Assembly (NCBI GenBank): GCA_947460875.1
Contig: CANHGR010000005.1
Span: 124,001-188,000, forward strand
DNA: 64,000 nucleotides
DNA from: Sphingobacteriaceae bacterium
Lineage (GTDB): Bacteria; Bacteroidota; Bacteroidia; Sphingobacteriales; Sphingobacteriaceae
Direction of reading: 5' to 3'
The position numbers and the translations under genes are program-made. Within the stretch, counting starts at the first letter, position 1; each line of letters opens with the position of its first letter. Positions 54,899-59,586 of this stretch are shown in pieces. The notes beneath the pieces were generated by a model, which was not told the origin of the DNA, made no database searches, and worked only from the letters and a program-made list of their open reading frames with translations.

Positions 54899-54906
54899 TA
54901 CTTTTG
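54899..54906 (+). promoter_or_regulatory. -7 box of the attenuated pheA operon
   Basis: TACTTTTG matches TAnnTTTG and lies 12 bases before the leader-peptide ATG. Transcription would begin near 54912. No clear -33 element. Confidence 0.6.
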
Positions 54907-54918
54907 AAAACGTAAACA

Positions 54919-54981
54919 ATGAAATTCAACTACGCATATTACTTCGGTTACTTTTACTTTAACAGTAAGAGCCGGGACTAA
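54919..54981 (+). CDS. Phe/Tyr-rich leader peptide of the pheA attenuator
   Basis: A 20-codon frame, MKFNYAYYFGYFYF followed by NSKSRD and TAA. Codons 3-14 contain four Phe and five Tyr, far above chance. Its stop codon overlaps the first copy of the GCCGGGACT element, so a ribosome that finishes the peptide would sit on the antiterminator arm. Nine regulatory codons in a row of twelve is the classic design of a leader that senses charged tRNA-Phe and tRNA-Tyr. No other function is expected. Confidence 0.85.
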   Translation: MKFNYAYYFGYFYFNSKSRD

Positions 54982-55040
54982 TTGCGTTAATCTATAAAAT
55001 TTAACGAAGAGTCCTGGCCAAAAGCCGGGACTTTTTTTTT
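54967..55040 (+). terminator. Transcription attenuator (antiterminator/terminator switch) before pheA
   Basis: The element GCCGGGACT occurs twice, at 54971-54979 and 55024-55032. Between them AGTCCTGGC (55010-55018) is complementary to both, with one G-T pair. Pairing with the second copy around the loop CAAAA gives a stem followed by T9 (55032-55040), a rho-independent terminator. Pairing with the first copy, with CGTTAA/TTAACG (54985-54990 and 55001-55006) as an inner stem, gives an antiterminator that prevents it. The leader peptide ends on the first copy. pheA starts 7 bases after the T tract. Confidence 0.85.
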
Positions 55041-55047
55041 AACAACC

Positions 55048-55878
55048 ATGCAGACGAAAAAAATAGCCATTCAGGGAATAAAAGCTTCTTTTCACGAAGA
55101 AGCCGCGTTCAAGTACTTCGGTGAAGACATCGAAACTATTGAGTGCGATTCATTTCGTGCTACCTGCGAAGCACTGAAGTCTAAAAATGCAGACTACACC
55201 GTAATGGCTATTGAAAACTCGATCGCAGGCAGTATTCTTCCAAACTATTCGCTATTGCGTGACTATCATTTTACTATCGCCGGCGAAGTGTGCCTGCCGA
55301 TTCAACTTCATTTATTAGCCCTGCCAGGCGTTAAATTTGAACAGATCAAATACGCTGAATCGCACCCTATCGCGCTTCGGCAGTGTGTTGATTTCTTTTA
55401 TGAATATCCTCATATACAAATAGTTGAGAGTACCGATACAGCTGCTTGCGCTAAGAAAATTCGCGATAATCAGCTTACTGATACGGTTGCAATCGCAAAT
55501 ACTCTTGCTGCAAAAACCTATGGCCTGGACATAATGGAACGTCGAATAGAATCTAATAAACAAAATTACACGCGCTTCCTAATCCTGTCGGATAGCATAA
55601 ATAGTGAAAATAAAGATGCAAATAAAGCCTCTTTAAGTTTTCAAGTAGGTAACGAAATTGGTGCGCTTGCAAAAATCTTGAATATCTTTGCCGAACAAAA
55701 TATAAACATGAGTAAAATTCAATCAATGCCTGTATTGGGTAAAAGAAATGAATATAACTTTTATGTCGATGTAGAATGGAATAACCGAACCGAATATGAA
55801 AAAGCCATTGCAAAAGTACTTCGGTATGCTATAAATTTTACCATTATGGGCGAATACTGCAAGAATGACAAAGTGTGA
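55048..55878 (+). CDS. pheA: Prephenate dehydratase
   Basis: Converts prephenate to phenylpyruvate, the committed step to phenylalanine. The 276-residue protein has the PDT core (AIQGIKASFHEEAAFKYFG, then MAIENSIAGSILPNYSLL and the NYTRFLIL motif with the Thr-Arg-Phe catalytic triplet) and a C-terminal ACT domain from about 190 (LSFQVGNEIGALAKILNIFA), which in homologues binds phenylalanine for feedback inhibition. No chorismate mutase is fused; that activity is on the DAHP synthase gene downstream. The attenuator directly upstream controls it. Confidence 0.95.
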   Translation: MQTKKIAIQGIKASFHEEAAFKYFGEDIETIECDSFRATCEALKSKNADYTVMAIENSIAGSILPNYSLLRDYHFTIAGEVCLPIQLHLLALPGVKFEQIKYAESHPIALRQCVDFFYEYPHIQIVESTDTAACAKKIRDNQLTDTVAIANTLAAKTYGLDIMERRIESNKQNYTRFLILSDSINSENKDANKASLSFQVGNEIGALAKILNIFAEQNINMSKIQSMPVLGKRNEYNFYVDVEWNNRTEYEKAIAKVLRYAINFTIMGEYCKNDKV

Positions 55879-56022: not shown

Positions 56023-57138
56023 ATGAAATTAGACCTTAAAATCCAACCACTTTCAACATGGCTAAAACCAGCAACTGAAAATAGGCCTCTAGTAATTGCA
56101 GGTCCTTGCAGCGCGGAAACAGAAGACCAGTTAATTGCCACTGCGCATTTATTGGCTAAAACAGGAAAAATTTCTGCCCTCCGCGCTGGAATTTGGAAGC
56201 CTCGTACTCGTCCGGGAGAATTTGAAGGCATTGGTAGCATCGGACTTAAATGGCTAAATCGTGCAAAAGAAGAAACCGGTTTACCAACTGCAGTTGAAGT
56301 CGCAACGGCTAGGCATGTTGAAGAAGCACTAGCATCGGGAGTCGATATTCTTTGGGTGGGTGCGCGTTCTACAGCAAATCCATTTACTGTGCAAGAAATT
56401 GCAGACGCCCTTCGCGGAGTTGATATCCCGGTAATGGTAAAGAATCCGGTCAATCCCGACCTTTCTTTATGGATTGGCGCTCTCGAACGAATCAACAATG
56501 CCGGTATCCAGAAAATTGCGGCTATTCACCGCGGGTTTAGTTCATATGAAAAATCGGCATTCCGTAATGAACCAATGTGGGAACTGGCTATTCAGCTGAA
56601 AACGATTTGTCCTGAACTACCAATAATAAATGATCCAAGCCATATATGCGGCAATCGCGAATTAATCCCTTATATTAGTCAGAAGGCATTTGACATGGAT
56701 ATGCAGGGCGTGATGATCGAATCACACCTTGACCCTTCTGTTGCCTGGACTGATGCAAAACAGCAGCTCACTCCTTCTGCACTTTCTGATCTTATAGATC
56801 ATCTTACTCTTCGCCACGTGGAGCCGCAAAACGCTGCATTGTCTGATAAATTAGCCGAACTCAGAAACAAGATTGATCAGTTGGATGATCAAATCATTCA
56901 GAAAATATCTGAAAGAATGGCCGTTGTGGAGAAAATTGGAGAACATAAGCGTGACAATGATGTCACCATACTTCAGGTTAATCGTTGGGATGAGATCATG
57001 CATAAACGTACAGCATTCGCAAAAGCACTAAAACTTGATCTAAATTTCACGGCAAAGCTTTTAGAATTGATGCATAGCGAATCTATCCGCAAGCAAACAG
57101 AGATTATGAATAACAAACCCGTTGCTGAAGAAAAATGA
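56023..57138 (+). CDS. DAHP synthase fused to chorismate mutase
   Basis: A bifunctional 371-residue enzyme. The N-terminal DAHP synthase of the AroA(Q)/Neu-like type (about 1-265) has VIAGPCSAETEDQ, RAGIWKPRTRPGEFEGIG, VDILWVGARSTANP and PIINDPSHICGNREL. A C-terminal chorismate mutase of AroQ type (about 275-360) has LAELRNKIDQLDDQIIQKIS and ERMAVVEKIGEHKRDN. Such fusions make DAHP at the start of the pathway and prephenate near its end, where the mutase gives feedback control. The gene ends in an ATGA overlap with aroA. A prephenate dehydrogenase, often present here in the phylum, is missing. Confidence 0.93.
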   Translation: MKLDLKIQPLSTWLKPATENRPLVIAGPCSAETEDQLIATAHLLAKTGKISALRAGIWKPRTRPGEFEGIGSIGLKWLNRAKEETGLPTAVEVATARHVEEALASGVDILWVGARSTANPFTVQEIADALRGVDIPVMVKNPVNPDLSLWIGALERINNAGIQKIAAIHRGFSSYEKSAFRNEPMWELAIQLKTICPELPIINDPSHICGNRELIPYISQKAFDMDMQGVMIESHLDPSVAWTDAKQQLTPSALSDLIDHLTLRHVEPQNAALSDKLAELRNKIDQLDDQIIQKISERMAVVEKIGEHKRDNDVTILQVNRWDEIMHKRTAFAKALKLDLNFTAKLLELMHSESIRKQTEIMNNKPVAEEK

Positions 57139-58397
57139 GTTTAGAAAGTCTGATCCTTTCTAAAAAAACTCGAGAATTTTCGGGCATGATCCAACTCACA
57201 GGATCTAAAAGCGAAAGCAACCGTGCATTGATTCTAGAGGCGCTGAGTGATGGCAAAGTGGTGGTTAATAATCTGTCTTCTGCTGCAGATACCGTCACGT
57301 TAGACCGCATCCTAAGTTCCAATCTCGAACTTCAAACCTCTGCCCTCATAGACGTAGGTCCAGCTGGCACTGCAATGCGCTTTCTAACGGCCTATTACGC
57401 AACAAAAACGCAAAGCGATGTAACCCTAACAGGAACAGAGCGAATGAAACAACGACCCATCGGCATACTTGCAGATGCACTTATTTCACTAGGCGCCAAA
57501 ATCGAATATGAAGAAAAAGATGGATTCCCTCCAATAATATTGAAAGCGGGCTTCGCTCAGAAGTCAAAACGAATCAAGATTAAAGGCGACATCAGTTCTC
57601 AATATATTACTGCTTTATTATTGATCGCTGCAACACTACCGTTAGGGCTTGAACTTGAAATAGATGGTGATCTTACTTCCAGGCCCTATGTTGAAATGAC
57701 CTTGGCATTGTTGGATCAAACCGGCATTAAACATACCTGGAAAGACAATTTAATAGAGATTGTTGCCCAGCCATTTCAAGCCGGAAACATTAACGTTGAG
57801 CCGGATTGGAGCGCTGCATCGTATTGGTATGCTATCGCTGCACTTTGCACAAACGCTGAGATACGACTTCCCTACCTCAGAAAATACAGCCTTCAGGGCG
57901 ACAGCCGTATCGCTGAGATTATGGCCAATTTTGGTATCACGTCGGTTTTTGATGAAAACGGCCTTACCATTACAAAAGAAGATAAAGTATTGTCTAGAAA
58001 GATCTTCGATTTTAAAGAATGTCCTGACTTGGCTCAAACGGTGATTGTCTGTTGCGCGGCCCTCGGGCACGATGCTACGTTTACCGGATTGGAAACGTTG
58101 AAAATAAAAGAAACAGACCGAGTTCTTGCTTTACAGAACGAACTGGGCAAAATGGGGGTTAAATTGATCGAGAAAAATATGGTTTATAAACTCGACTGTT
58201 CTGAACGCTTTACTCCCGAAAAGATTTACATTAATACCTACGAAGATCACCGCATGGCGATGGCTTTTGCTCCGCTTGCACTCATAATCAATGAAGTTGA
58301 AGTTGAAGATCCTTCTGTCGTAAATAAATCTTATCCACATTTCTGGGATGATTTGAGCAAGGCAGGGTTTGGAATTAACGTATTGCGTAATGCCTAG
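57135..58397 (+). CDS. aroA: 3-phosphoshikimate 1-carboxyvinyltransferase (EPSP synthase)
   Basis: Adds enolpyruvate to shikimate 3-phosphate. The 420-residue inside-out barrel protein has LTGSKSESNRALIL (substrate-binding start), VGPAGTAMRFLTAYYA, GTERMKQRPIGILADALISL and, near the end, KIKETDRVLALQNELGKMGV with EDHRMAMAFAPLAL. The alanine in the PAGTAMR motif matches the usual glyphosate-sensitive layout, but sensitivity cannot be judged from this. The start overlaps the end of the DAHP synthase gene by four bases, so it is in the same operon. Confidence 0.96.
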   Translation: MSLESLILSKKTREFSGMIQLTGSKSESNRALILEALSDGKVVVNNLSSAADTVTLDRILSSNLELQTSALIDVGPAGTAMRFLTAYYATKTQSDVTLTGTERMKQRPIGILADALISLGAKIEYEEKDGFPPIILKAGFAQKSKRIKIKGDISSQYITALLLIAATLPLGLELEIDGDLTSRPYVEMTLALLDQTGIKHTWKDNLIEIVAQPFQAGNINVEPDWSAASYWYAIAALCTNAEIRLPYLRKYSLQGDSRIAEIMANFGITSVFDENGLTITKEDKVLSRKIFDFKECPDLAQTVIVCCAALGHDATFTGLETLKIKETDRVLALQNELGKMGVKLIEKNMVYKLDCSERFTPEKIYINTYEDHRMAMAFAPLALIINEVEVEDPSVVNKSYPHFWDDLSKAGFGINVLRNA

Positions 58398-58497: not shown

Positions 58498-59586
58498 ATG
58501 GCTGGCAACTCATTCGGACAATTATTTCGTATCAGCACCTATGGTGAATCACATGGCAAGGCAATTGGTGTAGTTATTGATGGCTGTCCGCCAAACATAA
58601 TCATCGACGATGAATTTATTCAAGGTGAACTAGACAAAAGAAAACCAGGTCAGTCGAAAATAACCACTCAGCGCAAGGAAAGCGATGAGTTTCAGATCCT
58701 TTCGGGGATATTTGAAGGCAGAACAACAGGTACCCCCATCCTGATTAATATTCCGAACTCAGATCAAAAATCAAAGGATTACGATCATAATAAAGATATC
58801 TTTCGCCCTTCGCATGCAGACTACACCTATCAGGAAAAATACGGAATCCGCGATCATCGCGGCGGTGGACGCTCCTCCGCCCGCGAAACTGCAGCTCGCG
58901 TTGCTGCAGCTGCTATTGCGAAACTGTACCTTAAACAACTAGGAATAGAAATTTTCGCGCATGTATCTGGGGTGGGCGAAATTGAGTCTACGGATCTCGT
59001 TTCTGGAAACATAACGTCTTTACTTGAGAAGCGTGAAGCTAATCTGGTACGCTGCGCTGATCCCGTCGTGGCTGATAAAATGCTTGAATTAATCGAGAAA
59101 ACGAGAAAATTGGGCGATACCGTTGGTGGTAGGATTTCCTGTGTTATCCGTAACTGTCCGGTGGGCTTAGGCGAGCCCGTTTTTGATAAATTACACGCTG
59201 ATCTTGGTAAAGCGATGTTAAGCATCAATGCGGTTCATGGATTTGAATACGGATCTGGATTTGCCGGCTCTAGAATGAAAGGTTCTGAACATAATGATAT
59301 ACCTATCCCTTCCAGGGATGCCGGACTTCATTCTGAAACCAATTTCGCTGGTGGAATCCTTGGTGGAATTTCCAATGGCATGGATATCAGCTTCCGCGTT
59401 GCATTTAAACCAGTAGCAACTATTATGCAGAATCAGTCGACAGTTGATAAATCAGGCAATGCTGCAGAAATCATGGGCAAAGGACGTCATGATCCTTGCG
59501 TGGTGCCTAGAGCGGTTGCTATTGTAGAGGCTATGGCAGCATTAGTAATCGTTGATCACTACTTGAGAAATAAAGCGTACAAATAA
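58498..59586 (+). CDS. aroC: Chorismate synthase
   Basis: The final common step to aromatic amino acids: an FMN-dependent anti-elimination that makes chorismate. The 362-residue protein has [19 protein letters not shown] (signature 1), [20 protein letters not shown] (signature 2) and [20 protein letters not shown] (near signature 3), with [17 protein letters not shown] at the end. Length is normal. It lies 100 bases after aroA, so it may be in the same operon or have its own start in the spacer. Confidence 0.97.

Follow-up and report, generated by a model that had tools for sequence, protein, structure and literature searches.

Comparative evidence for a ribosome-mediated attenuator with a mixed Phe/Tyr leader peptide ahead of pheA in Bacteroidia

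Results

Genes and leader features at the pheA locus

The window, that is, the whole stretch of 64,000 nucleotides analyzed here, contains a series of aromatic-pathway genes on the forward strand, headed by pheA:

55048..55878, + strand: pheA, prephenate dehydratase with ACT domain (PF00800, 184.5 bits, above the cut-off; NCBIfam PRK11898, 194.5 bits, below its 219-bit cut-off)
56023..57138, + strand: DAHP synthase fused to chorismate mutase (NCBIfam; same order in relatives)
57135..58397, + strand: aroA, EPSP synthase (TIGR01356, 293.8 bits); its start overlaps the stop of the preceding gene
58498..59586, + strand: aroC, chorismate synthase (TIGR00033, 449 bits)

The fused DAHP synthase/chorismate mutase gene probably belongs to the pheA operon, and gene order and strand suggest that aroC does as well. 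The order pheA, DAHP synthase/chorismate mutase, aroA is kept in Sphingobacteriaceae relatives; in other families, a class I/II aminotransferase gene comes next after pheA. A candidate prephenate dehydrogenase gene lies elsewhere in the window's genome. Upstream of pheA, the following features were recognized:

54899..54906, + strand: -7 promoter element (Bacteroidota) TACTTTTG (TANNTTTG), identified from the sequence
54919..54981, + strand: leader peptide ORF MKFNYAYYFGYFYFNSKSRD with its stop codon, 20 codons, 4 Phe and 5 Tyr
54932..54987, + strand: 1:2 hairpin (protector/pause), in which copy 1 plus its flank pairs with the Phe/Tyr codons, predicted at -16.2 kcal/mol
54971..54990, + strand: segment 2, the antiterminator 5' arm, copy 1 of GCCGGGACT over the stop codon, then CGTTAA
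55001..55018, + strand: segment 3, the shared partner, TTAACG then AGTCCTGGC, which can pair with segment 2 or 4
55024..55032, + strand: segment 4, copy 2 of GCCGGGACT, identified from the sequence
55006..55040, + strand: intrinsic terminator, 3:4 hairpin at 55006-55036 with loop CAAAA, T run to 55040

The aroB gene, on the same strand, stops 81 nt 5' of the -7 element, and the leader ATG (54919) is found 12 bases past it. By analogy with the -7 geometry of Flavobacterium johnsoniae, with T at -12 (PMC6847099), transcription is predicted to start near 54911, which would leave a 5' UTR of 8 nt; the terminated RNA would be ~130 nt long. The leader is devoid of a Shine-Dalgarno sequence, and its base at -3 is A, a positive determinant of Shine-Dalgarno-independent initiation (PMC6847099). 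Among 106 leader loci pooled from Bacteroidia (see below), the motif TAnnTTTG occurs no more than 45 nt 5' of the leader ATG in 54, versus 2.3 expected. A sigma-70 scan did not yield a usable promoter at the leader, which is what one expects in Bacteroidota.

The leader, whose translation is predicted, is a short ORF rich in codons for the end products: Phe occupies codons 3, 9, 12, and 14 and Tyr codons 5, 7, 8, 11, and 13, together 9 of the 20 codons. Its stop codon (54979-54981) overlaps copy 1 of GCCGGGACT. The original prediction had described the -7 box, its spacing to the ATG, and a 20-codon peptide with 4 Phe and 5 Tyr, followed by a duplicated element with a single partner, a T9 run, and pheA 7 bases further on; every one of these coordinates proved correct in the sequence.

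Mutually exclusive hairpins in the leader RNA

The two copies of GCCGGGACT lie at 54971-54979 and 55024-55032, with AGTCCTGGC at 55010-55018. An intrinsic terminator stands between the leader and the structural gene, its T9 run spanning 55032-55040 and the pheA ATG following at 55048. An antiterminator that shares the 5' arm of this terminator, and excludes it, is supported by predicted energies (-20.8 kcal/mol for 2:3 vs. -19.7 kcal/mol for 3:4) and by shuffle and swap tests. In the window, the pairing of the leader with the terminator arm was better than that of 200/200 shuffled leaders, and the region 54899-55047 as a whole folds at -36.7 kcal/mol compared to -21.5 +/- 3.4 kcal/mol for shuffled sequences (z = -4.5), none of which, out of 200, equaled it.

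Beyond the two pairings originally proposed, we found a third hairpin, 1:2, which uses the Phe/Tyr codons and copy 1. With this hairpin, the layout becomes the full 1:2 / 2:3 / 3:4 arrangement of a classical attenuator.

Conservation within Sphingobacteriaceae

A PheA protein search in named genomes yielded 18 loci of the Sphingobacteriaceae type (Mucilaginibacter, Sphingobacterium, Hufsiella, Albibacterium, and further relatives). In 18/18 of them, pheA is preceded by the leader, the two copies, and the T run; a more distant PheA locus (L020, 50% identity) has no such element. When the window's whole genome was searched with a covariance model of the element, one strong match was obtained (112.5 bits). 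The weaker matches, at ~35 bits or less, were considered as paralogous copies and rejected as terminator-only noise, none being convincing.

The original prediction had called for a test of covariation in both stems; within the family, covariation was seen in one of them. In the 3:4 terminator, 4 pairs changed on both sides with 97.9% of alignment cells paired, a result reached by only 2 of 500 shuffles. The 2:3 antiterminator helix showed single-side changes only and no compensatory double change in the family alignment. As the family sequences are too similar to each other, covariation of 2:3 within the family is uninformative, and the support for this helix therefore comes from the comparison between families. 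The 1:2 hairpin is predicted in all family members (-9 to -17.8 kcal/mol), with 97.5% of cells paired and two double-change pairs. In the peptide itself, aligned over 35 family leaders, an aromatic residue occupies positions 7-9 and 11-15 in 84-100% of cases, with F, Y, and W interchanging, and the positions on either side vary freely.

Conservation across the class Bacteroidia

We next extended the search to a sample of 395 Bacteroidia genomes (family labels f1 to f78, f1 being identified via named relatives). The covariance model gave a strong match in every same-family genome and revealed further pheA leaders in other families. Matches from other families near E 0.001-0.01 were mostly terminator noise and were set aside, and prevalence was therefore taken from the pheA upstream regions. 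In this model-independent check, short ORFs were collected upstream of pheA in 94 genomes, and an aromatic leader was defined by at least 6 F/Y/W in 12 codons. Such a leader was present in 63/94 regions, compared to 3/94 on the reverse strand.

The pooled leaders (n = 106, from about 19 families) contain both Phe and Tyr without exception, and 32 of them contain Trp too; overall, F makes up 21.7% and Y 17.5% of residues. Mixing of the two amino acids had been singled out as a peculiarity of the window. The mixing is real, but it is the norm of the class. Trp codons interspersed in the Phe/Tyr leader (e.g., TYWFGYFYYF) were observed at L016, L037, L039, L042, L043, L045, L048, and L050, which suggests that some genera may sense all three aromatic amino acids. 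Between families, the peptides resemble each other in aromatic richness only.

Of 108 candidate loci, 104 have a terminator. Compared to shuffled sequences, the leader is the better partner of the 5' arm of its own terminator at 90/104 loci with p <= 0.05 and at 74/104 with p <= 0.01; at the 14/104 that miss p <= 0.05, the antiterminator may be weaker or may have been overlooked. The terminator arm differs by family, with CCGGGACT in the window's family, AGGCAGGA in f57, AAGCGGGA in f33, and AAGGATTG or GAGGCTTT in f54. When leaders were swapped, one from a foreign family paired equally well with a given arm in just 8% of trials.

The geometry of the element is likewise preserved. Counted from the first base of the last aromatic codon in the cluster, the antiterminator arm starts 12 nt downstream (IQR 10-14; n = 89); in the window, segment 2 starts 13 nt downstream of the last Phe codon's first base. 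A distance of 12 nt is approximately where a ribosome stalled on that last aromatic codon would have its leading edge. The standard deviation of this offset is 2.8, as opposed to 23 in shuffles and 9.2 when measured from the stop codon; outside the window's family, the values are 3.0 for the offset and 10.2 from the stop codon. Given such tight spacing between codon and arm, selection appears to act on the position of the stall relative to the antiterminator, a relation that an unrelated small protein would not explain.

The element is not universal. A recognizable aromatic leader is absent ahead of pheA in f12, f22, f68, and part of f15 (e.g., L072, L071, L122, and L068), where either the leader precedes a different operon gene or regulation is of another kind. 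Outside the class but within the phylum, an aromatic leader was not seen at any of 19 pheA loci. Taken together, the conservation of peptide and pairings that the original prediction required was found in 18/18 Sphingobacteriaceae loci and about 18 other Bacteroidia families, all of which retain a leader with both aromatics and the competing pairings; the stem sequences are specific to each lineage.

Sister leaders ahead of other amino acid operons

Leaders with other codons were found elsewhere. In Pedobacter-like genomes (a name guessed from the family), the model of the pheA element picked up Thr/Ile-rich leaders (e.g., MIFNTSIITTIIITTGINQRG) of the same architecture ahead of aspartokinase/homoserine dehydrogenase, at L156, L157, and L158 in three genomes of one genus. 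The window's own genome carries a leader rich in Thr, MQIKRSMMTITTSTTGISEGAL, together with a GC-rich terminator, immediately ahead of thrA (L184, G000:C11:5400-7600, reverse strand), resembling the E. coli thrL leader in codon content. His-rich leaders precede hisG at 27/30 Bacteroidia loci (L185-L214), including that of the window's genome (L208, upstream of G000:C1:259703). The leader codons match the product of the operon: F/Y at pheA, H at hisG, and T/I at thrA.

Discussion

Judged from sequence comparison, the element is very probably a transcription attenuator of the ribosome-mediated kind that controls pheA together with the aromatic-pathway genes downstream; we assign this reading a probability of about 0.93. 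The comparative evidence thereby supports what had been proposed for the leader. According to this model, a ribosome following close on RNA polymerase would begin the leader peptide. A shortage of charged Phe-tRNA or Tyr-tRNA would make it stall within the nine aromatic codons, opening 1:2 and leaving segment 2 free to capture segment 3 as the antiterminator, and the polymerase would read through into pheA. If both were plentiful, the ribosome would reach the stop codon and mask segment 2, so that 3:4 would form and transcription would end at ~130 nt. When translation does not take place, the 1:2 hairpin would hold segment 2 and the terminator would form as well. Stalling, the amino acid response, and coupling of ribosome and polymerase at the pheA leader are what we infer from this layout.

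The element could respond to Phe or Tyr only, most likely Phe, with Tyr codons being tolerated to keep the hairpin sequence AT-rich and U-rich. The next gene encodes prephenate dehydratase, an enzyme of the Phe branch, the E. coli pheA leader is Phe-only, and Phe is slightly commoner than Tyr in the Bacteroidia leaders. However, both amino acids occur in all pooled leaders despite the differing stem sequences, aligned family positions switch among F, Y, and W and seldom to other residues, and the operon includes shared steps (DAHP synthase, chorismate mutase, EPSP synthase, and chorismate synthase or, in other families, an aminotransferase). With shared-pathway genes or an aminotransferase behind pheA, the controlled genes serve Phe and Tyr together. 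We regard a single signal as unlikely; the conservation points to Tyr having a weight equal to that of Phe in the pheA leader.

Two further explanations would do away with specific sensing altogether. Whatever the cause of a stall in the leader, segment 2 would become accessible, as in the leaders that respond to antibiotics, and the element might thus report a general slowdown of translation; yet the codons fit the end product at pheA, hisG, and thrA alike, which would be needless for a general sensor and makes this reading highly improbable. Slightly less probable still is that the short ORF encodes a small functional protein and the hairpin is an ordinary terminator of the upstream transcript, with pheA having its own promoter. 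A terminator would be sensible so close to the end of aroB, but a promoter element precedes the leader and the 7 nt from the T run to the pheA ATG are too short for another one. Moreover, peptides that are alike in aromatic richness only, and a leader that co-varies with the terminator arm, argue against a small functional protein.

Going beyond the single locus, we lean towards a class-wide, pan-aromatic attenuator: one leader would read the charging of Phe, Tyr, and, in approximately one third of cases, Trp tRNAs and so set the flux through the common pathway. It would form part of a broader system of leaders at pheA, hisG, and thrA, and such a system implies that RNA polymerase and ribosome are tightly coupled without Shine-Dalgarno initiation. 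Bacteroidia ribosomes ignore Shine-Dalgarno sequences (PMC9976891). By comparison, textbook attenuation is widespread in Bacteroidia, a class with unusual transcription machinery, and the pheA elements tested are covered by no Rfam model. Both the tight coupling of transcription and translation in Bacteroidia and the idea of a single leader as an OR-gate with two or three aromatic amino acids as inputs become testable in this way, and the pheA elements offer themselves as simple, ready-made reporters of amino acid supply in soil and gut Bacteroidota.

Attenuation by leader peptides in Bacteroidetes is not new in principle, as indicated by the Bacteroid-trp RNA and, as far as its main text goes, by a study of Flavobacterium psychrophilum (PMC9723704). 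The latter describes clues to leader-peptide attenuation before amino acid operons and structured 5' elements before pheA and hisG. Its pheA element shares phylum and gene with ours and is transcribed, structured, lacking an Rfam match, and conserved in other Flavobacteriaceae genera; unlike the window's element, it is uncharacterized in the main text of that paper, which gives no peptide, codon content, or antiterminator. In the literature on Phe/Tyr leaders in Bacteroidota accessible to us, this was the only close prior work, and a 2010 survey of attenuation (Lopatovskaya et al.) may hold predictions for the phylum. Bacteroid-trp (RF01692, PMC2864571) is also a cis-regulatory motif of Bacteroidetes, linked to trp genes by its name, but it is a different model and has no match in the 64-kb window.

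At gathering scores, an Rfam search returned two tRNAs only in the window and a single Flavo-1 match only in 11 relatives. This Flavo-1 RNA (RF01705, 78.6 bits, L075:456-533) lies upstream of pheA in a genome that also has an aromatic leader. T-box models went unmatched, both at the gathering score across the window and at E <= 10 in the vicinity of the element. The top match by bits to the window region is the proteobacterial pheA attenuator, Phe_leader (RF01859), which scores 21.5 bits (gathering score, 55); the element is thus not a member of that family.

In its mode of action, the element would resemble the classical pheA, his, thr, and trp attenuators. The proteobacterial pheA attenuator likewise has a leader peptide with regulatory codons and 1:2, 2:3, and 3:4 hairpins before pheA. 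The window's leader differs from it, including the E. coli version, in its mixture of Phe and Tyr, in having no Shine-Dalgarno sequence, in its Bacteroidota promoter, and in heading an operon of the common pathway. The thr (Thr/Ile) and ilv (Ile/Val/Leu) leaders of E. coli also read several end products in one leader; they are not homologous to the window's leader, which is concerned with aromatic amino acids. New features, as far as the accessible literature shows, are the pheA leader peptide of mixed Phe/Tyr (often Trp) content, its presence in about 19 families, and the fixed distance from codons to antiterminator.
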